Source: Mucilaginibacter sp. MD40
GTDB lineage: Bacteria > Bacteroidota > Bacteroidia > Sphingobacteriales > Sphingobacteriaceae
DNA length: 64,000 nucleotides
Assembly: GCF_002288635.1 (NCBI RefSeq)
Contig: NZ_NRSW01000001.1
Location: 2,280,802-2,344,801, forward strand
Direction: 5' to 3'
In this document: positions 10,162 to 27,078 of the stretch, in pieces
How positions within the stretch are numbered: the stretch's first letter is position 1
How the letters are laid out: every line of letters begins with the position of its first letter
The notes under the pieces: generated by a model
The model's database searches: none
The model's input: only the letters and a program-made list of their open reading frames with translations
What the model was told of the DNA's origin: nothing
Made by a program: the position numbers and the translations under genes

Positions 10162-12657
10162 TTATTTCCTGAGTAGTACGGTTACTATTGCCGCTAAAGA
10201 GGCCAACGCTGTGGCAATACTTATGAGGCCTTGTATCCCAACCTTTTCTCTTGGAGCGTGTTGTGGTACAAATATTTCCGCGCCGGGTTTAACAGACGGA
10301 TGACTGCGGAAGAAGAGGAATTTTTTAGTGCCTTTAACTGAGCCGTTTGCATATTCAACGTATACCGCCCTTTTATCGGCGCTTGATGCATATCCACCTG
10401 CGCGATTGATGTACTCGCTAAGGCTCATACCTTTTTCATAAACTACGTTTATTGGTTTTAACACCTCACCGGATACTTTTACCGTTTGCAGTTCTGTAGG
10501 AATGTTAAGAATATCACCATCCTGTAGTATAAGGTCTGATTTTCCACCAGGATGTTTCATGATATCATTAAGGTCAATGCCTACCATATCGCTCCTGATT
10601 ATTTCATTACCTAAAGCTGTTTTAGACGTGTCAGTTACACCATTCTGTACCTGTAACCTCTTTAAATTCAGGAGTTTTAAACGCTCATTTTTTTGGCTAA
10701 GCGTATCATTTTTGTCATTAGGGTTGTTGCCCAAGACAGTGCCGGGACGCTTTAATGAAGCACCTTCAGGGAAAGCCTGGATTGTTAAACCGCCAGCCCG
10801 TAAAAGCACATCAGAAATACGCTCGTTTTTCTTTTTAAGCGAGTAGTTGCCCGGATATTTAACTTCGCCTTTTATCAGCACGTTAAGTTGAGGGCGGTTT
10901 CTGTCAGCAAGTCGTACCGATATCACATCAAAGGGCTGTAAAATAAAAGGCTGTCCATGATAAGTAAGGTCAGAGTCTACCGCGATAGTGAAAAGATCTG
11001 CCGTACGCAGCGACCTGCCGGAAGTATCTGCATTATTTATCCTCCGCGAAACTTCCACACGGGTAAAAGCTGCATCGGGTTTAAGCCCACCCGCCATTTG
11101 TATGGCCGTTTCAACACTCATGTTATCGGCATATTTGTAAGTGCCCGGAAGCCTTACTTCACCTTTAACCTCAAAAGTATATTCATCGCGCAGGTCAAGT
11201 AATGAATTGATGCTTACTTTATCCTCACGCTGTAAAAGGGGATCAGTGGTTCTGCCGGCTAATACATCGTTCAGATCAACAGACAAAACCGTGGATGAGT
11301 TGTCCTTGTTTAACCGCAGCACATAAACCCTGTTAGTAAAGGCATCCTCTTTTAAGCCACCTGCACGGGTAATTAACTTACTTAAAGTTAAACCGTTGCT
11401 TAGTTCATAATCGCCGGGCCTGAAAACCGCGCCGCGTATTTGTACACGGTTTGCAAAGCGGTTGAGTATGGTTTCAACCGTAAATTTATCGCCATTATTA
11501 GGTCGGTAGGTGCCAAATTCAGCAGCCGGTATATCGGCTATTTGCCTTTCACGGGAAGTATTTTGTACTACTTTTACAGATGCTGTATAGGCGGTTGAAG
11601 AAAAGCCGCCGCTGAAGTTAATAAGATCAGTTAACGATTCGCCATCCTTCATTTCATAAATGCCGGGGCGTTTAACATCGCCAGTCATCTCTACCCGTTT
11701 TTTGTAAACAGGCACACTAATTACATCCTGATCCTGCAGGCGTATATTGCTGTTTTGCAAGCCTTTTAGTAAAAAGTCATAAATATCAACGGTTTGTATA
11801 ACCCTATTGTTCCTGACTACGTGAATATCCCTGAATGAGCCGTTCTCATTTGGCCCTCCTGAAAGGTAAAGAGCATTAAATACCGATGACAAGGAAGATA
11901 CAGTATAGGACCCGGGTTTTCTTACCTCTCCAACCAGGGTTACCCTAATACTTCTAATGTTACCTATATTAACATTAACCGTGGTGCGGCCTGTTCTAAG
12001 CGCAGGATAGGTTTTAGATAGCGCCGCTTTTATTTTCGTTTCGGCACGCTCAATGGTTAAGCCTCCAACGGCTATCACACCGGCATATTGCACTCTTATA
12101 GTACCTTCCGGGCTTACTTTGAGCCGGTAACTGGCTTCGTTATCACCTGTAAGGTCCAGCAATATCTCATCATCAGGCCCTATTACGTAATTTTTGGGAG
12201 TAGCTATCCTAAGGTTGGGCTCAAAAGTTTGAGTACCATCTCTGAATAAATTTTCACCGAATATTTTAGGCGACAGATTGGCAAACGCGTCAGCCATGCT
12301 CTTTTGTTTGCTTCGTGAGCTACTGTCAGCAGCCATACCGTTTATCTTTCTTCCCGAGGGTATGGTGTCCGTATCGGTTGATTGGTTGTTATTGTTGTTA
12401 TTGCCTTTATTACGAAGATTACTTATCCTCACACGTAGTTTAGCAATTTCTTCGGGAGGCATACCTCTTGAAGCGGCAAGCTGGGCGGCCTGGTCGTCAC
12501 TGTAGCCAAGTGAGTTCGCTTTTTTTACCAGTTCCAGTACTTGCTGGTCATTCAGGTCATCAACTTTAATATTTTGTAAATTTTGGCCATAGCTATTCAT
12601 GCATAAAAAAACAAGAAACATGACCAAAATGGTATAAAGTGATTTTTTAAAGATCAT
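10162..12657 (-). CDS. SLBB-domain polysaccharide export protein (Wza-like)
   Basis: 831-residue outer-membrane export protein. It has a signal peptide (to about residue 24), then a low-complexity N/Q-rich segment near residues 86-96. The Poly_export domain (YVIGPDDEILLDLTG) comes next, followed by about six SLBB repeats recognisable by V-GEV--PG-Y motifs. A hydrophobic C-terminal helix precedes the final RK. This multi-SLBB architecture is the Bacteroidota form of Wza and should export an exo- or capsular polysaccharide. No Wzc kinase or polymerase lies beside it. It is divergent from the NRPS/PKS cluster across 586 bases. Confidence 0.88.
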   Translation of the reverse strand: MIFKKSLYTILVMFLVFLCMNSYGQNLQNIKVDDLNDQQVLELVKKANSLGYSDDQAAQLAASRGMPPEEIAKLRVRISNLRNKGNNNNNNQSTDTDTIPSGRKINGMAADSSSRSKQKSMADAFANLSPKIFGENLFRDGTQTFEPNLRIATPKNYVIGPDDEILLDLTGDNEASYRLKVSPEGTIRVQYAGVIAVGGLTIERAETKIKAALSKTYPALRTGRTTVNVNIGNIRSIRVTLVGEVRKPGSYTVSSLSSVFNALYLSGGPNENGSFRDIHVVRNNRVIQTVDIYDFLLKGLQNSNIRLQDQDVISVPVYKKRVEMTGDVKRPGIYEMKDGESLTDLINFSGGFSSTAYTASVKVVQNTSRERQIADIPAAEFGTYRPNNGDKFTVETILNRFANRVQIRGAVFRPGDYELSNGLTLSKLITRAGGLKEDAFTNRVYVLRLNKDNSSTVLSVDLNDVLAGRTTDPLLQREDKVSINSLLDLRDEYTFEVKGEVRLPGTYKYADNMSVETAIQMAGGLKPDAAFTRVEVSRRINNADTSGRSLRTADLFTIAVDSDLTYHGQPFILQPFDVISVRLADRNRPQLNVLIKGEVKYPGNYSLKKKNERISDVLLRAGGLTIQAFPEGASLKRPGTVLGNNPNDKNDTLSQKNERLKLLNLKRLQVQNGVTDTSKTALGNEIIRSDMVGIDLNDIMKHPGGKSDLILQDGDILNIPTELQTVKVSGEVLKPINVVYEKGMSLSEYINRAGGYASSADKRAVYVEYANGSVKGTKKFLFFRSHPSVKPGAEIFVPQHAPREKVGIQGLISIATALASLAAIVTVLLRK

Positions 12658-13243: not shown

Positions 13244-16200
13244 ATGAGTATCCTTGCCGATCAGAAATATTATGGAAGTGCTGAAGGTGAAATGCTGCTA
13301 CACCATTTGTTTGAGCAACAAGCAAAGCAGCATCCTGATGTAGTAGCCGTGCAATTTGGAGATGAGCGCATCACCTATGCTGAAATGAATAGGAGGGCCA
13401 CTCAAGTGTCCGAAGTAATTTCCGCAACCAGTCCCGAAGCGCTTGTAATAGGAGTAAGCGCTACACGCTCTATAGCTACCATGGTAAGCCTGTTTGCCAT
13501 ATTAAAAGCAGGTAAAGCGTATTTACCCTTAGACCCCACTTTTCCCGCCGAACGCCTTCAGGATATTATTCTCGATAGCGGAATGGATACCTGCCTTGCC
13601 CCGGCGGCAGATGTGGATGTTTTTGGAAAACTCGTTAAAAACGTTATCATTTCAGACGGAGATATACAGGCTCCAGAGGAATTGCCGATAAGGGTTGCCA
13701 AAACCGGTATAGCTTATATCATTTACACATCAGGCTCTACAGGTAAACCAAAAGGCGTTTGCGTGGCCCATGCCGGGCCCATCAATTTGATTAAATGGAA
13801 CCAACGCATAGCGCCATACCTGGGCATTGGGCATCGTACGCTTCAGTTTTCGCCACTGATATTTGATGCCTCTGTGATGGAGATACTCTGTACCTTATGT
13901 ACAGGCGGTACCATGGTGCTGGTGCAGGAGGAGGTGCGTATTGACCCAATAAGGCTACTTAAGTATATTAACGACCAACAGGTAAACCGCATCATTGTCA
14001 CTTTTGTGGCACTACAGTATTTAACTGAGGCTGCCGATGCCGAACAATTCTTTCCCGCGTCATTGCAGGATGTGATCAGCGCGGGAGAGCAGTTAAAGGT
14101 TACGCCGCAGATACTCCGCTTTTTTAAGGCTTTGCCCGGCTGTATTTTTTATAACATGTATGGCCCTACAGAGGCCAGCGTTTGCAGCACCGCCTTAAAA
14201 CTGGAAGGTTCGCCTGATGCCTGGCCACTGCTGCCCAATATTGGCAAGCCTATTGATGGTGTTAATATTGTTGTGTTGGATGAACAACTACAGCAGGTAC
14301 CTGATGGCGAACAGGGAGAATTATGCATTAGCGGCATTAGTTTGGCCGAGGGTTACCTTAACCGTGCCGACCTTACCGCGGAAAAATTTGTAGACTGGCA
14401 AGACGGCGATGGCAATGCCCGTAAAGTATACCGCAGCGGCGACCTTTGCCTTTACCTGCCTGATGGGAACATCGAGTATTTGGGCCGCAAGGATACCCAG
14501 GTAAAAATACGTGGTAACCGGGTTGAGATAGGGGAAATTGAGGTATTACTTAACCAGATGGATGGCATTCAGCAATCTGTTGTGGCGGCACGGGAAGATG
14601 TGCCGGGCCAGAAACGGTTGGTAGCTTATTTAAAGGCCGGGGGCGACAAAAAAGATATTTCTTACCTGCGCGATAGCCTGGAGAAGCACCTCCCCGAATA
14701 CATGATCCCGTCCGCTTTTGTATGGGTTGATGGCTTTGTGGAAACTACCAGTGGTAAGATCGACCGCAATAAACTCCCCGCGCCTCATATGCAGCGCCCT
14801 GAATTATCGGTGCTGTATAAAGCGCCCGCTAACCCAACAGAAAAACGAATAGCAGATTACTGGGCCGGGTTGCTGCAAATAGACAGGGTAGGCGTTTACG
14901 ACAATTTTTTTGAGCTGGGTGGTAATTCCATACTGGCACTTAAAACAGTTGCCGCTTTAAAAAAGCAGTACAATTATACTTTACCTATTACTAAAGTATA
15001 CCAATACCCAACGGTAAATGGCATAGCATCCTACATCGATGGCAACAAAACAGTAGCCAGGGTAAATGCTGCAAAGCCGAGAAATAACGGTAACCAGGAT
15101 ATAGCTGTGGTAGGCATGGCGGTGCGTTTTCCCGGTGCTAATAATGTAGATGAGTTATGGAAGCTGCTTACCGAAGGACGGGAAAGTACCTCTTTCTTCA
15201 GCGACGAAGAATTGGATAAAAGCATTCCTATCGAAATACGCAATGCGCCTAATTATGTAAAAGCGCGCGGTATTGTTGAAGGTGCTCAAGGCTTTGATGC
15301 CGCTTTTTTTGGCATTAACCCTAAAGTGGCGGAGTTGATGGATCCTCAACAGCGTATTTTCTTGGAGCTGGCCTGGGAGGCGCTTGAAACCAGCGGGCAT
15401 TTACCCGAACATTACAATGGGGTAATTGGGGTTTACGGCGGTGTAGGTAACAATACCTATTATATTAATAATGTATTAGCGCATCCTGATAAAATAGAGA
15501 ATATAGGGCGGTTCTTAACCGCTACCATAAACGAGAAAGATTATATAGCTACCCGCACAGCTTATGAGCTAAACCTTACCGGCCCCGCTGTAAGCGTACA
15601 CGCGGCCTGTTCTACCTCTTTGCTGGCTATTGCGCAGGCGGCCGATGCCATTCGGAACGGCCAATGTACGGTAGCGCTTGCCGGAGGGGCATCCATCAGT
15701 ACACCTATCAACAGTGGGCATCTTTATCAACAAGGAACCATGCTCAGCGCCGATGGGCATTGCCGCCCGTTTGATGCCGAGAGTGATGGTACCGTATTTA
15801 GCGATGGAGCCGGTATAGTAGTGCTCAAAAATATGGATGATGCCATAAAAGATGGCGATACCATTTATGCCGTTTTAAAAGGAGTAGGGTTGAATAACGA
15901 CGGTGGCGGAAAAGGTAGCTTCACTGCGCCAAGCGCTGACGGGCAGGCAGGGGCTATTGCTATGGCTATCGCCGACGCAGGTGTAGAGGCTGCTAACATT
16001 TCCTACATTGAGGCTCATGGCACAGCCACTGCTTTAGGCGACCCTATAGAGATAGAAGGCTTAAACCTGGCTTTTGGCAAGCAGGAACATAACCAGTATT
16101 GCGCCATAGGCTCTATCAAGAGTAACATGGGGCATTTAGTAGCAGCGGCGGGTGTGGCAGGGTTCATTAAAACTACGCTGGCACTGTATCACCGGCAAAT

Positions 16201-19200
16201 ACCGCCTTCATTGCATTACACAAGGCCGAACCCTAATATCGACTTCACTGAAAGTCCATTCTTTGTCAACACATCCTTACGTAACTGGGGGGCTGTAGGC
16301 AAACGAATAGCAGGTGTAAGCTCATTTGGAGTAGGCGGGACCAATGTACACACGATACTGGAAGAATATCAGCAAAATGAAGATAATGAAACCATTGAGC
16401 AACGCCCGTTTGAGCTGATCAGTTGGTCGTCTAAAACCGCTACCAGCGCTTCAAAGTACGCGGATAGATTGTACTATTATATACAGGATCATCCCGAAGC
16501 CAGCTTAAGCGATATAGCTTATACGTTGCATACCACACGTGCGGATATGCGCGAGTGTAATTTCATCATAGCCGCCGACAGGCAGGACCTGATGGAAAAG
16601 CTCATGAATTACAAAAGGGATGTAACCAATTCAAAGGTGCTTAACCAGCAGGCAACAGAAGTAGTATTTATGTTCCCTGGCCAGGGTGCGCAATACCTCA
16701 ATATGGGCTATGATTTGTACAAACATGAGCCCGTATTTGCCGCTGCGGTAAGTGAGTGCGTGGCCATTCTGCAAGGTACGGCTCATGCCGGCATCCTTGA
16801 TGTAATATATGCTGAGGAAACCGCTGAAGCCGCGGAAAAACTGAAAAATACTTTTTATACCCAGCCGGCTATCTTCATCACTTCTTACGCCATGGCCAGG
16901 CTATGGATCAGCTGGGGCATTGAGCCGGCCATACTGATGGGGCATAGCATTGGCGAATTTGTTGCAGCGCACCTGGCGGGGATATTCAGTTTGGAAGATG
17001 CCCTTAAACTGATCACTGAACGTGCCCGCCTGGTAAGCGAAGTGGCCGAAGGTGATATGCTATCCGTACGGGTAGCGCCGGATGAACTGGAAAAAATACT
17101 ACCTGCTGATTTGTCGATAGCGGCGGTCAACAGCAACAAACTATCTGTAGTAGCAGGCACAAAAGCAGCCGTCGCCGCATTTGCCGTGCAACTGGAGGCG
17201 AAAGGTATACCCGGCCGTATGTTGCAAACCAGCCATGCCTTTCACTCGGCCATGATGGATGGTATCGTAGCACCGTTTGAAAGCGTTGTGCGCACGGTAC
17301 AGCTTAACCGCCCGGTGAAACCGGTATTATCTACCGTTACCGGCGATTGGCTTACCGAGGCCGAAGCGACCGATCCGGCTTATTGGGCTAACCATTTACG
17401 TAAAACGGTACATTTTGCCCGTGCTGTAGACCGTGTGTGTGAAGAAAAAGGCCGCGTATTATTAGAGGTAGGTCCGGGCCGCACCCTGGCCACCCTTGCC
17501 GCCCAGCAGGCACCTGTAGATGTGGTAACTACCATTGCCGGGATAGATAACAATAAGCAGCCCGAGTATGTGTCTGCCCTAAAAGCCATGGGGCAGCTTT
17601 GGTTAAACGGTATTACACCCAACTGGAATAAGTTTTACGGGGATGGGCATAAACGTTTAACTCTACCTGCCTACGCTTTTGATCATAAGATATATTGGGT
17701 AGAACCAGCGCTGGCAACCCCTGCATTAACAGTAAATTACCAGCCGGGAGAAATAGTGCCCGATTCGCTATCTTTAACTATACAAGAGAATATCATACAA
17801 AATACCATGACGAGAAAAGATTTTCTGGCCGGTAAACTCCAGGGCATATTCGCTGATGCAGCGGGTATAGACATTGATAATGCCTCTGCTGATGTCAGCT
17901 TCCCTGAGATCGGGTTCGATTCGCTTTTGCTTACCCAGATAGCCACCAATCTTAAAAAAACGTTCAATGTAAATATCACCTTCAGGAAACTGTTTGAAGA
18001 TTACAACTCTATCAACCTGCTGGCAGATTTCCTGGACAAAACCATACCGGCAGGGCAGTTTGAACCGGCTCCAGCCACGAACACCGCAACGCCGGCAGCC
18101 AACAAACAGGCAGTTTATACCCAGGCGGCTCCGATGCCGCGAGCCATGCCACTAACGGGTAATGGAAGCGAGGTTGCTCTTAACATGATTAGCCAGCAAC
18201 TGCAATTATTGGCCGGCCAGATAGCGCAGTTACAGGGTTATGAAGCCAAAACGGCCAACCATACCCCCACCAACCACCAACCAATCCCCAACGGGCTGCA
18301 AAGCGAACCTGTGGCGCCCTTACTGCTCGACCAGGAGCCGGAGGTAACCGAGGAGGAGATGGTAGAGATAAAAAAACCGTTTGGGGCCACTGCACGCATT
18401 GAACGAAAAGTGCAGGAGCTTGACGATAAGCAAATGGCCTGGCTTGCTGACCTTACCAAAAGGTACAACGATAAAACACGTAAGAGCAAAGAACAAACAC
18501 AACAGCACAGGGCCTACATGGCCGATCCACGGGTAGTGAGCGGGTTTCGCCCGTTAACCAAAGAGGTGGTATATCCTATAGTTATCAATAAGTCAAAAGG
18601 TAACCGCTTGTGGGATGTTGACGGCAACGAATACATTGACGCACTAAATGGCTTTGGTTCAAATATGTTAGGTTATCAGCCTGATGTATTAAAAAAGGCC
18701 ATACATGAGCAGATAGACCTTGGCTATGAAATAGGCCCGCAGCATGAACTCGCTGGTGAGGTATGTAAGCTGATGTGTGAATTTACAGGCCATGATCGCG
18801 CGGCATTATGCAATACAGGTTCTGAAGCTGTACTTGGGGCAATGCGTATAGCGCGCACGGTAAGCGGAAGGTCACTCATTGTGGCCTTTAGCGGTTCGTA
18901 TCATGGTATTATGGATGAGGTGATTGTACGTGGTACCAAAAAGTTAAAAACGTTCCCTGCCGCATCAGGTATTTTGCCGGAAAACGTTCAAAATATGCTC
19001 ATCCTCGATTATGGTACGGACGAAGCCTTACGTATAATCAGCGAGCGTGCCGATGACATAGCGGCGGTATTGGTAGAGCCAGTACAAAGCAGGCGCCCTG
19101 AATTTCAACCGGTTGAGTTTCTTAAGAATCTGAGGACACTTACTGCCGAAAAGCAGATATGCCTTGTGTTTGACGAGGTGATCAGCGGTTTCCGTTTTCA

Positions 19201-19942
19201 TCCCGGTGGTACGCAGGCTTTGTTTGGTATCAAAGCGGATTTGGGTACTTACGGCAAGGTAATAGGCGGAGGCATGCCGGTTGGCGCAATATGCGGTAAA
19301 GCAGCATATATGGACGCGCTTGATGGTGGCTACTGGCAATATGGCGATGATTCGGTACCGGAAGTGGGTGTGACGTATTTCGCCGGAACTTTTGTACGCC
19401 ATCCCTTAGCTCTCGCTGCAGCTAAAGCGTCATTATTATACATGAAAGAACGTGGGCCTGCTTTGCAGGAAAAACTTACAGGCCTGGCCACACGTTTAAG
19501 AGAGGGAATGGAAGTTACCTGCCGTAAGCTGGATATTCCTGTTTCTACCGTAGGTTTTGGTTCGCTATGGCGTATTAAATTTTTCGAAGAGATACCGTAC
19601 AGCGAATTGCTGTTTACACTTATGCGGCTGAAGGGCATACACATACTCGACGGTTTTCCGTGCTTTATGACTGATGCCCACTCAGAGCAGGACGTAGACT
19701 TTATGATAGCGCAATTTAGCGCGAGCATACAGGAGATGGTTGATGTTGGCTTTTTTAAACAAAGTCAGCCTGGAAATACCTCGGCTGATCATGAGGTTAA
19801 AACGGTTAATCTCGCAGCAATGAATACCCCACCAGTTGCCGGAGCAAGGCTGGGACGCGATAAAGAAGGAAACCCCGCCTGGTTTATAGAGGATAAGGCC
19901 AACCCGGGAAAGTATTTGCAATACAACATCAGTAATAATTAA
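13244..19942 (+). CDS. Hybrid NRPS-PKS-aminotransferase megasynthase (A-T-KS-AT-ACP-AMT)
   Basis: 2232-residue assembly-line enzyme. Adenylation domain, residues about 20-510: A3 loop YTSGSTGKPKG near 161, FDASVMEI core and GKIDRNK lysine. Carrier domain with FFELGGNSI near 557-565. Ketosynthase about 618-1040: active-site Cys in HAACSTSL near 789, His in EAHGTAT and NMGH. Acyltransferase about 1140-1430: GHSIGEF near 1232 and a HAFHS motif that indicates malonyl-CoA. ACP with GFDSLLL near 1557. Class-III PLP aminotransferase about 1740-2180: Lys in TYGKVIGGG near 2005. No ketoreductase is present, so the beta-keto group formed by KS should be transaminated, as in the iturin/mycosubtilin initiation module. 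A1 signature residues (D, A, M ... C, K) resemble aromatic codes. There is no condensation domain, so this protein starts the chain. Confidence 0.93.
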   Translation: MSILADQKYYGSAEGEMLLHHLFEQQAKQHPDVVAVQFGDERITYAEMNRRATQVSEVISATSPEALVIGVSATRSIATMVSLFAILKAGKAYLPLDPTFPAERLQDIILDSGMDTCLAPAADVDVFGKLVKNVIISDGDIQAPEELPIRVAKTGIAYIIYTSGSTGKPKGVCVAHAGPINLIKWNQRIAPYLGIGHRTLQFSPLIFDASVMEILCTLCTGGTMVLVQEEVRIDPIRLLKYINDQQVNRIIVTFVALQYLTEAADAEQFFPASLQDVISAGEQLKVTPQILRFFKALPGCIFYNMYGPTEASVCSTALKLEGSPDAWPLLPNIGKPIDGVNIVVLDEQLQQVPDGEQGELCISGISLAEGYLNRADLTAEKFVDWQDGDGNARKVYRSGDLCLYLPDGNIEYLGRKDTQVKIRGNRVEIGEIEVLLNQMDGIQQSVVAAREDVPGQKRLVAYLKAGGDKKDISYLRDSLEKHLPEYMIPSAFVWVDGFVETTSGKIDRNKLPAPHMQRPELSVLYKAPANPTEKRIADYWAGLLQIDRVGVYDNFFELGGNSILALKTVAALKKQYNYTLPITKVYQYPTVNGIASYIDGNKTVARVNAAKPRNNGNQDIAVVGMAVRFPGANNVDELWKLLTEGRESTSFFSDEELDKSIPIEIRNAPNYVKARGIVEGAQGFDAAFFGINPKVAELMDPQQRIFLELAWEALETSGHLPEHYNGVIGVYGGVGNNTYYINNVLAHPDKIENIGRFLTATINEKDYIATRTAYELNLTGPAVSVHAACSTSLLAIAQAADAIRNGQCTVALAGGASISTPINSGHLYQQGTMLSADGHCRPFDAESDGTVFSDGAGIVVLKNMDDAIKDGDTIYAVLKGVGLNNDGGGKGSFTAPSADGQAGAIAMAIADAGVEAANISYIEAHGTATALGDPIEIEGLNLAFGKQEHNQYCAIGSIKSNMGHLVAAAGVAGFIKTTLALYHRQIPPSLHYTRPNPNIDFTESPFFVNTSLRNWGAVGKRIAGVSSFGVGGTNVHTILEEYQQNEDNETIEQRPFELISWSSKTATSASKYADRLYYYIQDHPEASLSDIAYTLHTTRADMRECNFIIAADRQDLMEKLMNYKRDVTNSKVLNQQATEVVFMFPGQGAQYLNMGYDLYKHEPVFAAAVSECVAILQGTAHAGILDVIYAEETAEAAEKLKNTFYTQPAIFITSYAMARLWISWGIEPAILMGHSIGEFVAAHLAGIFSLEDALKLITERARLVSEVAEGDMLSVRVAPDELEKILPADLSIAAVNSNKLSVVAGTKAAVAAFAVQLEAKGIPGRMLQTSHAFHSAMMDGIVAPFESVVRTVQLNRPVKPVLSTVTGDWLTEAEATDPAYWANHLRKTVHFARAVDRVCEEKGRVLLEVGPGRTLATLAAQQAPVDVVTTIAGIDNNKQPEYVSALKAMGQLWLNGITPNWNKFYGDGHKRLTLPAYAFDHKIYWVEPALATPALTVNYQPGEIVPDSLSLTIQENIIQNTMTRKDFLAGKLQGIFADAAGIDIDNASADVSFPEIGFDSLLLTQIATNLKKTFNVNITFRKLFEDYNSINLLADFLDKTIPAGQFEPAPATNTATPAANKQAVYTQAAPMPRAMPLTGNGSEVALNMISQQLQLLAGQIAQLQGYEAKTANHTPTNHQPIPNGLQSEPVAPLLLDQEPEVTEEEMVEIKKPFGATARIERKVQELDDKQMAWLADLTKRYNDKTRKSKEQTQQHRAYMADPRVVSGFRPLTKEVVYPIVINKSKGNRLWDVDGNEYIDALNGFGSNMLGYQPDVLKKAIHEQIDLGYEIGPQHELAGEVCKLMCEFTGHDRAALCNTGSEAVLGAMRIARTVSGRSLIVAFSGSYHGIMDEVIVRGTKKLKTFPAASGILPENVQNMLILDYGTDEALRIISERADDIAAVLVEPVQSRRPEFQPVEFLKNLRTLTAEKQICLVFDEVISGFRFHPGGTQALFGIKADLGTYGKVIGGGMPVGAICGKAAYMDALDGGYWQYGDDSVPEVGVTYFAGTFVRHPLALAAAKASLLYMKERGPALQEKLTGLATRLREGMEVTCRKLDIPVSTVGFGSLWRIKFFEEIPYSELLFTLMRLKGIHILDGFPCFMTDAHSEQDVDFMIAQFSASIQEMVDVGFFKQSQPGNTSADHEVKTVNLAAMNTPPVAGARLGRDKEGNPAWFIEDKANPGKYLQYNISNN

Positions 19943-22900
19943 TGCCCGAACAGACAGCTACATATAATCCCCAGGTTAGCACTGAAGCGTTTAACCCGTT
20001 TACCGGGCCCGAAATTTTACTAATTGCCCCTGCTACCGAACCCCAGATGGAGATCTGGACATCGTGCCTTATCGGCGGAAACGATGCCAATTGCGCATAT
20101 AATGATTTTGCTACCATCACGCTTACCGGACACGCGTTTGATAAGGAAGCCATGTTTGCCGCCATACAAGCACTTAGCGACAGGCACGAAGCTTTACGCA
20201 CCGTATTTAGCGCCAGTGGCGAGCATATCATTATTTATAATAATCCATCGGTAAAGGTTGACTATTATGACCTTTCAGGACAGGATGACGCGCAAAACAA
20301 ATTGTTTATTGAAAATTATAATAAGCAACTGGCAATAACACCATTAGATCTGGTTAACGGGCCGCTTTTTAAGACGGCCTTAATAAAACTCAGCGCAGAT
20401 GAGCACATGGTCATATTGCTTACCCATCATATTGTTTGCGATGGCTGGTCAATGGGGATCATTATGCAGGAACTTGGAAAGCTTTATTCTGCCTTTGCAC
20501 AAGGCTTCGAAGTTGATTTGCCGCCTACACCAAGATTTAGCCAATATGCTGAAGAGGAGGCCAACACATGTAACAATGCCGAGCACCTGGAAACCGAGCA
20601 ATACTGGATAGAGCAATTTAAGGGTAGCGATCACCTGTTAGACATACCTACAGACAACCCACGGCCCGTACCACGTACCTTTAAAAGCACACGGGCCGAT
20701 TACGGGCTGGATACTTTACTGGTAAACGATTTAAAAGCTTTCGCACGTAAAACAGGGGTAAGTTTGGTAACTACTATACTGGCATCTTTTGAAGTGCTTT
20801 TGCATCAGATTACCGGGCAGGATGAAGTTATTGTAGGTTTACCCGCCGCAGGGCAGTCGGCCACGGGCAACTTTAGCCTTGTAGGGCATTGCGTTAACCT
20901 GTTACCGCTGCGAAGTTTTCCGCATGGAAACCAAACTTTTGCCAACTATCTCAAAGAACGAAAAGATACGGTTCTGGACGCGTACGATCATCAGCAGTAT
21001 ACCTTTGGCAGCTTACTTAAGCGATTGGCTATTCCTCGCGATCCATCACGGTTACCGCTGGTGCCGGTCATATTCAATATTGACATTGGTATGGATGATG
21101 GTATCGCTTTTCACGAGCTTAAACATCGCTACATCAATAACCCGCGTGAGTACGAAACCTTTGAGATATTCTTAAATATTACCGATAATAAAGGCACGCT
21201 TACCTTTGAATGGTCGTATAATACTCAGTTATTCCAGCCGGCAACCATTTCGCGTTTCATGCAGGAGTTTGAACACCTGCTGCGGTATGTGATCAAAAAT
21301 CCGGATGCATTGATAGGTAAAATACCGCTCATGAACGCGGAGCAGGTAAAAGAACTGTTAACCAAGTGGAATAACACACAAGTGGCATACCCTAAGGATA
21401 AGCCGCTGCATCATATCATCAGCGAAACCGCGTCGCAATATCCTGATAGAATATCGTTAAAATTTAACGGGCAGGAATTGACTTATAATCAGCTTAACAA
21501 AAAAGCCAACCAGTTAGCTGCTGTTTTGATTGAAAAAGGTGTTAAGCCGGGTGATAAGGTAGCTATCTCCATGGATAGGAACGCTGACCTGGTTGTGGCA
21601 CTACTGGCCATCATGAAAGCTGGGGCTACTTACTTACCGCTCGACCCGATATTTCCCATCAACCGCATTAATTACATGCTGGAGGATTCGGGTGCGGTTG
21701 TTTTGATCACCACTAAGATTTACAGTCAGCGTTACGTATCTAACGCCAAAGAACTATTGCTTGAAGAGGTAATACCAAGCCTTGGAAATTATCCGGAAAC
21801 AGATCCTTTGGTAGAAGTAAATGGCGATGACCTCTTGTATATCCTGTACACATCCGGGTCAACAGGGCAGCCTAAAGGAGTACAGATCAAACATCACAAC
21901 GTGGTGAATTTTTTGTACAGCATGCAAAAGCAGCCCGGGCTTACCAATACCGATAAACTGCTGGCGGTTACCACCATCAGCTTTGATATTGCGGGGCTGG
22001 AGTTATGGCTGCCGCTCATTACAGGCGCTCAAATTGTACTGGCTGACGCAGGTACTGCCAAAGATGGGAATGTATTGCTGGATATCATCCGCAAGGAGTA
22101 TATTACGGTTATGCAGGCAACGCCATATACATGGCGTATCATGCTCGAATCCGGCTGGAAAAACGAGCGGATAAAAGTAATACGCGGAGGAGAGGCCTTA
22201 CCTATGGACCTTGCCACCCGTATTTTGGAGAGGGCAACATCTTTATGGAATGTTTACGGGCCTACCGAAACAACAATATGGTCTACCTTAAAAGAAATAA
22301 AAGCTACAGACGAATCCATTAATATTGGAAGACCCATTGATAATACTTATATATATGTTTTAGATAAGTTTTATAACATGCTGGCACCCGGGGCCGCGGG
22401 CGAAATATTTATTGGTGGGGAAGGTGTTGCTAAAGGATACCTTAACCGGCCCGAGCTTACAGCCGAAAAGTTTGTTGCCGACCCGTTTGACAACACGCCT
22501 GGCGCCATGATGTATGGCACGGGTGATTTGGGAACCTTTACGCCTGATGGCGAACTTGTTTATCTTTCGCGTATAGATGCCCAGGTAAAAATAAGGGGTT
22601 ACCGCATTGAAACGGGAGAAATAGAATACAATCTTTCCAAAGAAGAGGCGATAAAGCAGGCTGTTGTAATTGCACGTAACGATAAAAACGGGGTGGCTAA
22701 ACTGGTAGCCTACATAGTGCTCAACGAGCAGTATAAGAAAATAGAGGATTATACCGATCTGATACATCAATGGCGTGTGGCATTGCGAAATGCCGTACCC
22801 GATTATATGGTACCGGATAATTTTGTGGTGACGGACGAAATGCCGCTTACACCCAATGGGAAAGTAGATAAGAAAGCACTCGCCGCGCAGGATGTGGAAG

Positions 22901-23982
22901 CCGTTGAAACGGTTCGTTATGTTGCACCCACAACCGAAAATGAGCAACTGCTGGCAAAAATATGGGCCGAAATGCTGGGCATTGAACAGGTGGGTATACA
23001 CGATAACTTTTTTGAGTTAGGCGGGCACTCCTTAATAGCAGTTAAAGTAATGGCCCGCATAGAAAAGGAAACAGGGGAGCGGTTACCTTTAGCCATACTG
23101 TTTGAAAACTCGACCATTGAGAAGCTGGCATCGGTACTGGATAACGACAGTAATGCTATCTCATGGGACTCATTAGTGCCTATTAAACCAACAGGTACCA
23201 AAGTACCTATTTACATTGTACATGGTGCAGGGCTTAACGTGTTGTTATTTAATACGCTTGCCAAACACCTTGATGCCGACCAGCCTGTATATGGCTTGCA
23301 GGCCAAGGGCCTCAATGGGGTAGACGAACCGCTTAACCGTATTGAAGATATGGCTGCTCATTACATAGCCTCCATACTGGCGAAAAATCCTGACGGGCCG
23401 TATGCGCTGGCGGGCTTTTCTTTTGGTGGGCTCATTGCTTTTGAAATGGCCAGGCAAATGAAAGCCTTGAACAAGGATGTACGGATGCTGGGTATGTTTG
23501 ATACTTATGCTTATCGCACACCGCATTATGACCCGCTTACCACTCAGTTGTTAAAACGTGGTTTATACTTTGGACGAAAGATCTGGCATTCCGTCACCTT
23601 TAAGGATGGTTTCATCAAAACCATTAATAAACGATCAACGGCTGTAAAGCGTGGTTTGACCCGCCTGTTTTGGAAACTGCGCTATGGTAAAGAACAAAAT
23701 CAGGCCGGCTTTTTCGGGTATTCTCACCGGATAGATGAAATGAATGATATAGCGCAAAAGTATTATCGTATACAACCATCAGACCTGGAAATAGAGCTCT
23801 TTAGGGCTGAAACCCGTTCTTATTACCTGGACGATTATGTTTATATGGGTTGGAAACCTTACGCGTTAAAGGGCATTAATATCCATAACGTACCGGGTGA
23901 GCATAACACCATGTTTAAAGAGCCTAATGATAAAGTTTTTGCACGGGTACTGCAGGACTGTTTGGATAAAATTAACTATTAA
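19942..23982 (+). CDS. Terminal NRPS module (C-A-T-TE), glycine code
   Basis: 1346-residue termination module. Condensation domain, residues about 20-450, with HHIVCDG near 159. Adenylation domain about 470-960, with YTSGSTGQPKG near 635. Carrier domain with FFELGGHSL near 1023-1031. Thioesterase about 1085-1340, with GFSFGG active serine near 1160 and a terminal GEHNTMF histidine motif. The binding-pocket residues I read (D, I, L, Q, I, G, V, I, W, K) are close to the classical glycine code DILQLGLIWK. The start codon overlaps the previous stop (TAATG), so the two megasynthases are translationally coupled and work in line. The TE releases the product by hydrolysis or cyclisation. Confidence 0.92.
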   Translation: MPEQTATYNPQVSTEAFNPFTGPEILLIAPATEPQMEIWTSCLIGGNDANCAYNDFATITLTGHAFDKEAMFAAIQALSDRHEALRTVFSASGEHIIIYNNPSVKVDYYDLSGQDDAQNKLFIENYNKQLAITPLDLVNGPLFKTALIKLSADEHMVILLTHHIVCDGWSMGIIMQELGKLYSAFAQGFEVDLPPTPRFSQYAEEEANTCNNAEHLETEQYWIEQFKGSDHLLDIPTDNPRPVPRTFKSTRADYGLDTLLVNDLKAFARKTGVSLVTTILASFEVLLHQITGQDEVIVGLPAAGQSATGNFSLVGHCVNLLPLRSFPHGNQTFANYLKERKDTVLDAYDHQQYTFGSLLKRLAIPRDPSRLPLVPVIFNIDIGMDDGIAFHELKHRYINNPREYETFEIFLNITDNKGTLTFEWSYNTQLFQPATISRFMQEFEHLLRYVIKNPDALIGKIPLMNAEQVKELLTKWNNTQVAYPKDKPLHHIISETASQYPDRISLKFNGQELTYNQLNKKANQLAAVLIEKGVKPGDKVAISMDRNADLVVALLAIMKAGATYLPLDPIFPINRINYMLEDSGAVVLITTKIYSQRYVSNAKELLLEEVIPSLGNYPETDPLVEVNGDDLLYILYTSGSTGQPKGVQIKHHNVVNFLYSMQKQPGLTNTDKLLAVTTISFDIAGLELWLPLITGAQIVLADAGTAKDGNVLLDIIRKEYITVMQATPYTWRIMLESGWKNERIKVIRGGEALPMDLATRILERATSLWNVYGPTETTIWSTLKEIKATDESINIGRPIDNTYIYVLDKFYNMLAPGAAGEIFIGGEGVAKGYLNRPELTAEKFVADPFDNTPGAMMYGTGDLGTFTPDGELVYLSRIDAQVKIRGYRIETGEIEYNLSKEEAIKQAVVIARNDKNGVAKLVAYIVLNEQYKKIEDYTDLIHQWRVALRNAVPDYMVPDNFVVTDEMPLTPNGKVDKKALAAQDVEAVETVRYVAPTTENEQLLAKIWAEMLGIEQVGIHDNFFELGGHSLIAVKVMARIEKETGERLPLAILFENSTIEKLASVLDNDSNAISWDSLVPIKPTGTKVPIYIVHGAGLNVLLFNTLAKHLDADQPVYGLQAKGLNGVDEPLNRIEDMAAHYIASILAKNPDGPYALAGFSFGGLIAFEMARQMKALNKDVRMLGMFDTYAYRTPHYDPLTTQLLKRGLYFGRKIWHSVTFKDGFIKTINKRSTAVKRGLTRLFWKLRYGKEQNQAGFFGYSHRIDEMNDIAQKYYRIQPSDLEIELFRAETRSYYLDDYVYMGWKPYALKGINIHNVPGEHNTMFKEPNDKVFARVLQDCLDKINY

Positions 23983-23988
23983 TACAAA

Positions 23989-24729
23989 TTGGCTACGCTT
24001 ACAAACCTGCCGCTGGCTCATATTGATTTTATGCCGGGCAATATGGCCAGCTATCAATTATCTGCTGACGAAGTACATGTTTGGTGTACGAGTATAAGTG
24101 AGGGCTTTGAAATGTTACCGGTTTACGGGGCGCCTCTTAACGCTGATGAATTGGCCCGGGCCGGAAAGTATTTTCAGCTAAAAGACCAGCACCGCTTTGT
24201 GATAAGCCGGGGTATGCAGCGTATGGTTTTGGGCAGGTATATGAATACGGCATCAGATAAGCTTGAATTTGTTACGGGAGAAAACAAGAAGCCGAAAATT
24301 GCAAATAATAATAATGAAGAACTGTGTTATAATCTCTCGCATGCAGGTGATCGGATATTATTAGCTATAGCCAATTCGCCCGTAGGGGTTGATGTGGAAT
24401 ATCTTGACCCCGATTTTGACTTTAAAGATATTCTGCCGGACAATTTCAGTGGGCAAGAGATAGACTGGATTAACGAAACAAACAGCTTGGAACGTTTTTA
24501 CCAGTTATGGACACGGAAAGAGAGTTTCCTAAAAGCCACAGGCAAAGGGCTGGGGGATCATTTATCTGTTACACCAGCACTTGATGGCTCACATAACTTA
24601 TCCCAAACTTTGTTAAAAGATGATATGGCATGGGTTCAACAAAGTTTCAAAATAAATACTGCACATATTGCCGCTGTGGCTTACGCAGGTAACCGGCAGC
24701 TAAAGGCTTATCAATTCAACTTAATTTAA
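23989..24729 (+). CDS. 4'-phosphopantetheinyl transferase (Sfp family)
   Basis: Activates carrier domains by adding the phosphopantetheine arm from CoA to serine. The family motifs are GVDVEYL (magnesium site) and WTRKESFLKATGKG. It begins 6 bases after the NRPS stop, so it is the third gene of the biosynthetic operon and surely serves the three carrier domains encoded upstream. The TTG at 23989 gives an N-terminus that fits the family (HIDFMPGN... before LSADEVHVW). ATG codons at 24031 and 24043 are alternatives. The last 9 bases overlap the convergent phospholipase-like gene. Confidence 0.88.
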   Translation: MATLTNLPLAHIDFMPGNMASYQLSADEVHVWCTSISEGFEMLPVYGAPLNADELARAGKYFQLKDQHRFVISRGMQRMVLGRYMNTASDKLEFVTGENKKPKIANNNNEELCYNLSHAGDRILLAIANSPVGVDVEYLDPDFDFKDILPDNFSGQEIDWINETNSLERFYQLWTRKESFLKATGKGLGDHLSVTPALDGSHNLSQTLLKDDMAWVQQSFKINTAHIAAVAYAGNRQLKAYQFNLI

Positions 24730-26016
24730 AGCTCTTAAAGTATCGGCTTGTATGGCCGGTTTAATGGCCATAATTTCCTTTATCCTAAATTCAGTTTCTT
24801 TCCATTTCTTTTTATTTTTTGTAGCTAAGGCTGCGGTGTCTGCTTTTGCATAGTAATCAGAAATGTTTCTTTGCAGATCAGCATCTACTGTTTGATAATG
24901 CTGTTTTTGTAATTCTTTCAGTAATTTGGCGTATGTATCGTCGGCAAGTACATATTGGCCGGGCAAGGTGGGTGTGCCTGTATCAAAATTAATATCAGGC
25001 AATGTAAGCGACTCGCTTTTTACTTGTTCAACAGCTTCCTTGTAATTTTTTAAAATAGACTCAAAGCTTACGGCAAATAGTTTCTGTCCTTCTTCTCCGG
25101 GCGATTGATATTTCAAGGTCTTAAGCGGGCCGATCTTTGGTAATATCCTTATCAGGAATACGGTAAGTTTAGCAAAAAATTTACTCTCTTTTTGCTCTTT
25201 GCCAAACTCGAGATTAAAAGCACGCCGGCTCATTTTGTACTGAAATTTTTTAGCAGTAATGCCGGGATGCATACGCTCGATTTCGGCTTGGTTGGCTTTG
25301 TAGGCAGATCTTGTTAAGTTAGGAAACAAATTACGTACACCCCAGCGCATGGTATTAATATCCGCGTTAATGTTGCCAAATATGGTATTCAAATGCTTTC
25401 CATAAGTTTTAAAAAAAGCCCGTTCAAGTACCGGAACGGATATGTTAAATCCAATAAAATCATGGTAACCTTCCGAAGTGTAGCCGTTTTGGCCTATCTG
25501 TAGCACATCATAAGCAAATTCCATACGGCTATGCGAAAGGTGGTTATCTTCATAAGTAACCACATCGCCATATTTTTTCCGGAGCTTAGGATATACGATA
25601 GGCACGTTTAAATTGGTTGACATGGAATGACCATACTTATCGGCCATGTAATGCGACATTGCACCCAACGCGAAAGCGTACTCATTTAAATTCTGCGCAT
25701 CATTGATGAGGTTAATGATAAAATCTCCGCTGCGTACGTAATGCAAAAGATCTGTAAAGAAACCGTTTCCGAAGGGCATATAGCCCATATCGGCCACTAT
25801 ACTGCCACCATAAGCGTAAGAATGTGCTACCAGGAGTTCTTCGCGGGTAGCCGTAGGAAACTTTTCTTTCAACAAGGGTAACAGCGACGGCTTCCATGAA
25901 GCATCAATTATTGCTTCATGCGCAAGTACCGAATAGGCTTTTACACTTTGCCCGAGTAAGGCAACAAGTACAAGCGCTAAGAACGATTTTAAAGCAGATC
26001 TGAAAAGCATCTTCAA
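24721..26016 (-). CDS. Zinc-dependent phospholipase C-like secreted protein
   Basis: 431-residue protein with an N-terminal signal peptide and a zinc-dependent phospholipase C / S1-P1-nuclease-like helical fold. Likely zinc ligands are in LAHEAIIDASW, MSHYMADKYGHS and LSHSRMEFAYD. Homologues in this phylum are annotated as zinc-dependent phospholipase C domain proteins of unknown substrate. The C-terminal 100 residues are helical and charged. Its start codon sits only 48 bases from the SusC fragment, leaving little room for a native promoter, so its upstream region may have been rearranged. Confidence 0.75.
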   Translation of the reverse strand: MKMLFRSALKSFLALVLVALLGQSVKAYSVLAHEAIIDASWKPSLLPLLKEKFPTATREELLVAHSYAYGGSIVADMGYMPFGNGFFTDLLHYVRSGDFIINLINDAQNLNEYAFALGAMSHYMADKYGHSMSTNLNVPIVYPKLRKKYGDVVTYEDNHLSHSRMEFAYDVLQIGQNGYTSEGYHDFIGFNISVPVLERAFFKTYGKHLNTIFGNINADINTMRWGVRNLFPNLTRSAYKANQAEIERMHPGITAKKFQYKMSRRAFNLEFGKEQKESKFFAKLTVFLIRILPKIGPLKTLKYQSPGEEGQKLFAVSFESILKNYKEAVEQVKSESLTLPDINFDTGTPTLPGQYVLADDTYAKLLKELQKQHYQTVDADLQRNISDYYAKADTAALATKNKKKWKETEFRIKEIMAIKPAIQADTLRALN

Positions 26017-26064: not shown

Positions 26065-27078
26065 TTGAATGCGGTTAAAGATGCAATTGTTACCGGTTTA
26101 GAAATGAAGTTCTGGGGCGATAGGTTGGGTTTCGACCTTACCTTATTTTCTCGTAAAACAAGCAACGAGATTGTTAATGGAAACTTAGACTGGTCTACAG
26201 GTTACACAAACAGGTATATTGGTACAGGTTCTACCCAAAATAAGGGTATTGAGTTAGAGATTCATGGTACACCCGTAAGAACATCATCAGGCTTTAGCTG
26301 GACCCCGTCATTTAACTTTACCTATGTTAAAAACAAGATCTTGCAAACAGATGGTGTAACTAACGATAACTTCAACTTCGGTAGGTTCCGTCCTTCTGCA
26401 GCTAACGGTTTAGCTATTACAGCACTTGTTGCTGGTTTACCTGGTCCGCAGATACTTGCTGCAGATTATAAACGAGATGCATCTGGTAACATCGTGTTTG
26501 ACAGTAATGGTTTGCCACAAACCGGAAATTTAATTCCTATGGGTTCTACGATCCCTAAAATCTATGGTGGTTTAAATAACACATTCAATTACAAACAGTT
26601 TAACTTAAGCTTCCTGGTTGATTACCGCTTTGGTAACAAAGTATTGTCTGCTACTGAGCAAGCCAGTATCCTTAGAGGATTAAATAAACTTACATTAAAT
26701 GGTCGTGAAACCGGTGTTGTTGGTGTAGGTGTTACAGAAAGCGGTACACCAAACACAGTTAATGTACCTGCACAAACATATTACCAGGCGTTAGCACGTA
26801 ACGTTTACACGATTGATGTATTAGACGGTAGCTTTATCAAACTACGTCAAATTACTCTTGGCTATACCTTCAATGCTGCATTCTTGAGAGGAACACCGTT
26901 CAGCAGCATTGGCGTATCAGCAGTTGGACGTAACCTTTGGACTATCATGAAACACACTAAAAATATTGACCCAGAGTCAGGTTTTTCAAACGATGTTAGA
27001 TATGCAGGTATCGAAGGTGGTAGTTTACCTTTCGCCAGGACTTATGGTTTAAATGTGAACTTTAAATTCAAAAACTAA
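26065..27078 (+). pseudogene. C-terminal remnant of a SusC/RagA TonB-dependent receptor
   Basis: About 337 codons encoding only the last third of a SusC-type outer-membrane porin: GLEMKFWGDRLGFDLTLF, NKGIELEIHGTP, and the terminal FARTYGLNVNFKFKN strand. A full SusC has about 1000 residues, with signal peptide, carboxypeptidase-like domain and plug; all of these are missing. An in-frame TAA at 26053 closes the frame 12 bases upstream, and no ATG start exists. The remaining frame has no internal stop, so the loss looks recent. The partner SusD directly downstream is intact. Confidence 0.8.

Follow-up and report, generated by a model that had tools for sequence, protein, structure and literature searches.

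What a hybrid assembly line encoded in only three genes could produce is the question raised by the locus described here. It lies in a 64,000-nucleotide stretch of Mucilaginibacter DNA (hereafter the window), where three open reading frames on the + strand, at 13244-24729, encode A-T-KS-AT-ACP-AMT, C-A-T-TE and an Sfp-type PPTase (Table 1), the whole route comprising 3 genes and 11.5 kb.

Results

Organisation of the locus and domain architecture

The ORF positions and Pfam domains agree with a preliminary description of this DNA, which had listed three genes with this domain order and taken protein 2 for a single terminal module; Condensation, AMP-binding, PP-binding and Thioesterase domains were identified in the latter. 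The ORFs of proteins 1 and 2 overlap at TAATG by a single base, an arrangement suggestive of translational coupling within an operon, and the PPTase ORF begins 6 bases past the end of protein 2. Among the fetched loci, the closest relative was that of Mucilaginibacter sp. 44-25, with 96% identity over the AMT region.

Table 1. Features of the locus and of the adjoining gene (window positions).
Feature	Position	Strand	Details
Protein 1, A1-T1-KS-AT-ACP-AMT hybrid starter NRPS/PKS	13244..19942	+	2232 aa; Pfam
A1 adenylation domain	13310..14761	+	AMP-binding residues 23-372; Asp235, Lys517; code DAMIIAMVCK
T1 carrier	14846..15037	+	PP-binding residues 535-598; Ser562
KS	15095..16552	+	ketoacyl synthase residues 618-992; Cys789/His925/His964
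AT	16664..17611	+	acyltransferase residues 1141-1456; Ser1235; malonyl-type HAFHS
ACP	17830..18040	+	second PP-binding; GFDSLLL, Ser1560
Class-III aminotransferase (AMT)	18569..19648	+	Aminotran_3 residues 1776-2135; PLP Lys2005
Protein 2, C-A2-T-TE terminal module	19942..23982	+	1346 aa; Pfam, motifs
Protein 3, Sfp/HetI-type 4'-phosphopantetheinyl transferase	23989..24729	+	246 aa; start codon putative
Zinc-dependent phospholipase C-like protein, neighbour	24721..26016	-	41/61 genus genomes

The preliminary description had found neither a condensation nor a ketoreductase domain in protein 1, and indeed the search for KR and C domains returned 0 Pfam matches in it; the ~75 residues between AT and ACP hold no KR, and the arrangement of statine synthases, with a KR after KS-AT, is not present. 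The malonyl HAFHS motif attributed to the AT was located at residues 1331-1335, and the class-III aminotransferase was confirmed behind the Ser1560 carrier. Since the carrier, KS, AT and class-III AMT, all with their active residues, share one polypeptide, protein 1 has the make-up of a hybrid NRPS-PKS with an embedded AMT. The best match of the AMT among solved structures was the mycosubtilin (MycA) AMT 6kfm (E 6e-107), which makes it a homologue of a characterised beta-ketoacyl-ACP transaminase; the next-best family was glutamate-1-semialdehyde aminomutase (E about 1e-47). The C-terminal tail of protein 1, starting from residue 2197, reads PVAGARLGRDxxGNPAWFI. In protein 2, the C domain bears the motif HHIVCDG, and the thioesterase, a type I TE domain, bears GFSFGG. 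This C domain is the only Condensation domain in the whole genome; hence, there is no upstream acylating module.

The active sites are strongly conserved. Across 32 homologs, protein 1 shows no change in the active serines of T, ACP and AT, the Cys-His-His of the KS, HAFHS or the PLP lysine of the AMT; among the checked residues, one AMT tyrosine and one Arg/Lys position were the exceptions. Inactive AMT or KS residues on alignment, which the preliminary description had named as grounds for abandoning its reading, were thus not seen. Protein 2 was likewise invariant, over 23 homologs, at HHxxxDG, at the serine of its carrier and at the serine and histidine of the TE. A simple Nei-Gojobori count against the close locus L035 gave dN/dS values of 0.095 for protein 1, 0.069 for protein 2 and 0.24 for the PPTase; synonymous sites were saturated in more distant pairs. 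Proteins 1 and 2 are under purifying selection, and values of 0.07-0.10, together with Pfam scores far above the cut-offs, imply that the domain architecture did not arise by chance.

Specificity of the adenylation domains

A1 retains Asp235 and Lys517, the hallmarks of alpha-amino-acid A domains, and also matches TIGR01733. These residues, the absence of a C domain before A1 and the single C domain of the genome are the features expected of an alpha-amino-acid starter with a free amine, and not of the fatty-acid-activating starters of the iturin/mycosubtilin lipopeptide synthetases. The 10-residue code of A1, which forms a hydrophobic pocket, had no match in the open-access literature searched; it is identical at 6/10 positions to what we take to be the phenylalanine code, which may serve only as a lead. 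The substrate of A1 is probably a free, hydrophobic alpha-amino acid, as judged from these residues.

The first A domain is variable, with 30 distinct codes over 73 loci: Pro-like DVQ types account for 23, Thr for 8, Ser for 5 and Asp/Asn-like ones for 2, the others including hydrophobic codes that are unassigned (loci not fully deduplicated, here and for the next A domain). The codes at the A1 position of relatives comprise Thr (DFWNIGMVHK), Ser (DVWHLSLIDK), Asp-like (DLTKMGHIGK) and Pro-like (DVQF..) ones, where DVQFMAQVVK is called Pro-like from its resemblance to DVQFIAHV and the Asp/Asn-like label is presumptive. Code families for Thr, Gly, Ser and Pro are documented (PMC12283262, PMC2866473). 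The A2 code, DILQIGVIWK, is of the Gly type, DILQLGMIWK being given as a Gly code (PMC12283262), and the next A domain was Gly-type in 47 of the 65 scorable loci and Asp-like in 4. Within Mucilaginibacter, the A1 pocket gave no support for positive diversification, its entropy being no higher than elsewhere (P 0.54-0.66).

A constant chassis with a variable first domain

With the AMT region as the query, relatives were detected in 42/201 genomes of the family and, in a sampled set, in 17/395 genomes of the phylum, the latter count including a few weaker matches from other, larger assembly lines. The genera with relatives include Mucilaginibacter, Pedobacter, Parapedobacter, Larkinella, Spirosoma, Fibrivirga, Aquiflexum, Belliella and Pseudoxanthomonas; within the genus, the distribution of the cluster is patchy. 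One further contig, L065, is labelled Nostoc sp. CHAB 5824, has 70% GC and shows 91% identity to a Pseudoxanthomonas MAG; it is probably contamination.

Across the family T-KS-AT-ACP-AMT is the constant part and the first A domain the variable one. From T1 to AMT, the proteins of Larkinella and Parapedobacter are about 42-71% identical to that of the window, whereas their A1 is nearer to the window A2 (32-38%) than to the window A1. In the A1 tree, strong support separates both genera from the A1 group of Mucilaginibacter; a quick KS-AT-ACP-AMT tree, by contrast, places Parapedobacter next to Mucilaginibacter with moderate support. Such discordance, together with the identities, is consistent with an exchange of the first A domain while the chassis stayed constant, and the change of A1 between genera looks like domain replacement as far as sequences can tell.

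Several loci bear on the order and extent of the line. In L090 and L104 the domains A-T-KS-AT-ACP-AMT-C-A-T-TE run unbroken in one polypeptide, which fixes the order as protein 1 then protein 2. In Spirosoma sordidisoli (L056, 4139-11575) and Fibrivirga (L057, 4210-11560) a Thr-coded A-T-KS-AT-ACP-AMT protein lacks an adjacent C-A-T-TE gene, so that this unit need not be followed by a glycine step; in both, a GNAT acetyltransferase gene lies immediately upstream of the protein 1 homolog. Parapedobacter soli (L055, 4952-18265) has two A-T-KS-AT-ACP-AMT proteins in tandem, with a Thr and then a Ser code, which suggests two consecutive diamino units. A scan of 4 longer homologs of protein 2 (L092, L051, L087, L120) revealed in each a methyltransferase domain inserted behind the second A domain, and an N-methylated second residue would be expected from them; in 3 of these the code is Gly-type, making a sarcosine unit likely.

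Genomic neighbourhood

Over 18 representative loci, no extra gene besides the PPTase was shared across genera. The phospholipase C-like neighbour was rejected as a member of the system, as 41 of the 61 genomes of the genus have it, those lacking the cluster among them. The clusters L050, L051, L059 and L062 (Pedobacter, Spirosoma, Aquiflexum, Belliella) adjoin glycosyltransferase, flippase or GDP-mannose genes, and a Pycsar effector-type (PycTM) gene lies close to the Pedobacter hartonius cluster (L050, 1810-3132). A SusC-like protein at 26065-27078 of the window matches its profile over the final third alone (664-981 of 981) and adjoins a full-length SusD; in L035 an alpha-L-fucosidase is found at this place, which makes a rearrangement breakpoint near 26.0 kb probable.

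Proposed route and alternatives

From these results, a route may be proposed: a colinear, self-contained line would extend an alpha-amino acid with a malonyl unit to a 3,4-diamino acid, couple it to glycine and release it by the TE, a reading that we hold to be rather probable. Domain order, intact active sites, a malonyl AT, a Gly-type A2 and an operon are read directly from the DNA, and the chemistry is deduced from domain homology. The PPTase would arm the carrier domains, and A1 would charge T1 with a free, probably hydrophobic alpha-amino acid, whose amine would stay unacylated because no C domain precedes A1. The KS would then join the T1-bound amino acid with malonyl-ACP to give a gamma-amino-beta-ketoacyl thioester, the beta-ketone of which would be transaminated by the AMT, yielding an aminostatine-like acyl-ACP with amino groups at positions 3 and 4, a vicinal diamine. 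Finally, the C domain of protein 2 would link the diamino acyl chain to glycine and the TE would set the product free. The linear product would have the mass of amino acid X plus 100.064 Da and the cyclised one 18.011 less, with [M+H]+ values of 266.150 (Phe), 232.166 (Leu/Ile) and 218.150 (Val) expected. Elsewhere in the family, this chassis with another first A domain, and often another or an N-methylating second one, would give a series X-(C2-NH2)-Gly. The 3,4-diamino acid of the preliminary description thereby gains from the nearness of the AMT to 6kfm, Asp235/Lys517 of A1, the amino-acid codes of relatives at the A1 position and the Gly-type A2.

The foremost alternative, which we regard as unlikely though worth keeping in view, is that the dipeptide is closed by the TE or by its own chemistry through the 3-amino group, giving a 7-membered 1,4-diazepane-2,5-dione, or through the 4-amino group, the vicinal diamine being merely an intermediate. 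Free 3- and 4-amino groups would be close to the glycyl thioester and a type I TE domain is present; nevertheless, the sequence is equally compatible with hydrolysis and with cyclisation. Against the proposed route it can also be held that the free gamma-amine may attack the thioester, giving a tetramic acid or gamma-lactam ahead of protein 2. It seems improbable that ring closure of this kind is the main outcome, in which the ACP-bound thioester, whether gamma-amino-beta-keto or diamino, would become a tetramic acid or 4-aminopyrrolidin-2-one and protein 2 would seldom act or take another substrate: the primary gamma-amine and the thioester are placed for a 5-membered ring, and orphan first proteins occur in Spirosoma and Fibrivirga, but most loci have protein 2 next to protein 1, two have the pair fused, and protein 2 retains every motif at a dN/dS of 0.07.

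Very little speaks for a fatty or aryl acid as the substrate of A1, which would lead to an ordinary beta-amino acyl-glycine: starter A domains of AMT systems, such as the microginin and McyG starters, can use carboxylic acids, but Asp235 and Lys517 are retained in A1 of the window and its relatives, and clear Thr, Ser and Asp codes stand at several orthologous A1 positions. Just as improbable is a dipeptide unit that decorates an exopolysaccharide or envelope polymer instead of being secreted as a free metabolite, since for all the polysaccharide and glycosyltransferase genes flanking the cluster in the four genera named above, and a gene upstream in the window (10162-12657) that resembles, judged from sequence, polysaccharide export (SLBB-type) genes, the neighbours in Mucilaginibacter and Larkinella are mostly unrelated and no transferase is conserved alongside the cluster.

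Discussion

The cluster belongs among the AMT-containing NRPS-PKS lines and is not a separate category. In MycA, the first subunit of the iturin/mycosubtilin line and the source of the closest solved relative, the AMT likewise makes a beta-amino from a beta-keto acyl chain; MycA, however, begins with a fatty acid and supplies a long lipopeptide line, whereas the window line has a predicted amino-acid starter and stops one residue later. The AMT modules of microcystin McyE and microginin MicA likewise place a KS-AT-ACP with an embedded class-III AMT ahead of a C domain, but their starter is not an alpha-amino acid, as is predicted here, and they carry further domains for methylation or oxidation. 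Statine-forming A-T-KS-AT-KR modules build a gamma-amino acid skeleton from an alpha-amino acid and malonyl; where their KR gives a 3-hydroxy group, the AMT of the window would give a 3-amino group. Vicinal diamines are scarce among natural products, and 3-amino analogues of statine are, to our knowledge, a matter of medicinal chemistry and not of nature.

No characterised product for this layout was found in the open-access literature, nor was a characterised match for aminostatine, for a vicinal diamine with an NRPS or for the A1 code. The preliminary description knew of no exact match at all, which does not hold for the layout: it is widespread in Bacteroidota and was catalogued in 2013 for Pedobacter heparinus, whose protein C6XWU5 is listed as A-CP-KS-AT-CP-PLP1 of the Aminotran_3 type with Nrp-Mal-Gly predicted (Milano et al. 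2013, PMC3870968, Table 2). As described there, and by layout rather than alignment, its domain order is identical to that of the window, with Gly predicted next; the entry itself is a catalogue listing that gives no product, vicinal-diamine inference or family comparison (PMC3870968). For the product, the absence of an exact match may still hold. An antiSMASH NRPS/T1PKS region has been reported for M. aquariorum JC4 (PMC9843747), the locus of which is L041 of the compared set. In guadinomine, a T3SS inhibitor, a vicinal diamine is required for potency; by its description, that pathway differs from the window cluster in being larger and actinobacterial (PMC6963908).

What appears to be new is the comparison of the family as a chassis, in which T-KS-AT-ACP-AMT is constant, the first A domain variable and the second usually of the Gly type. 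We tentatively suggest that swaps of the first A domain could give a natural series of aminostatine-type 3,4-diamino acids joined to glycine or sarcosine, plausible metal chelators or protease inhibitors, widespread in Bacteroidota. Expression of the whole 11.5 kb, three-gene route would be easy, and the variation of A1 on a constant downstream chassis offers ready examples for engineering. If the proposed route is true, an orphan cluster common among soil Bacteroidota would gain a product.
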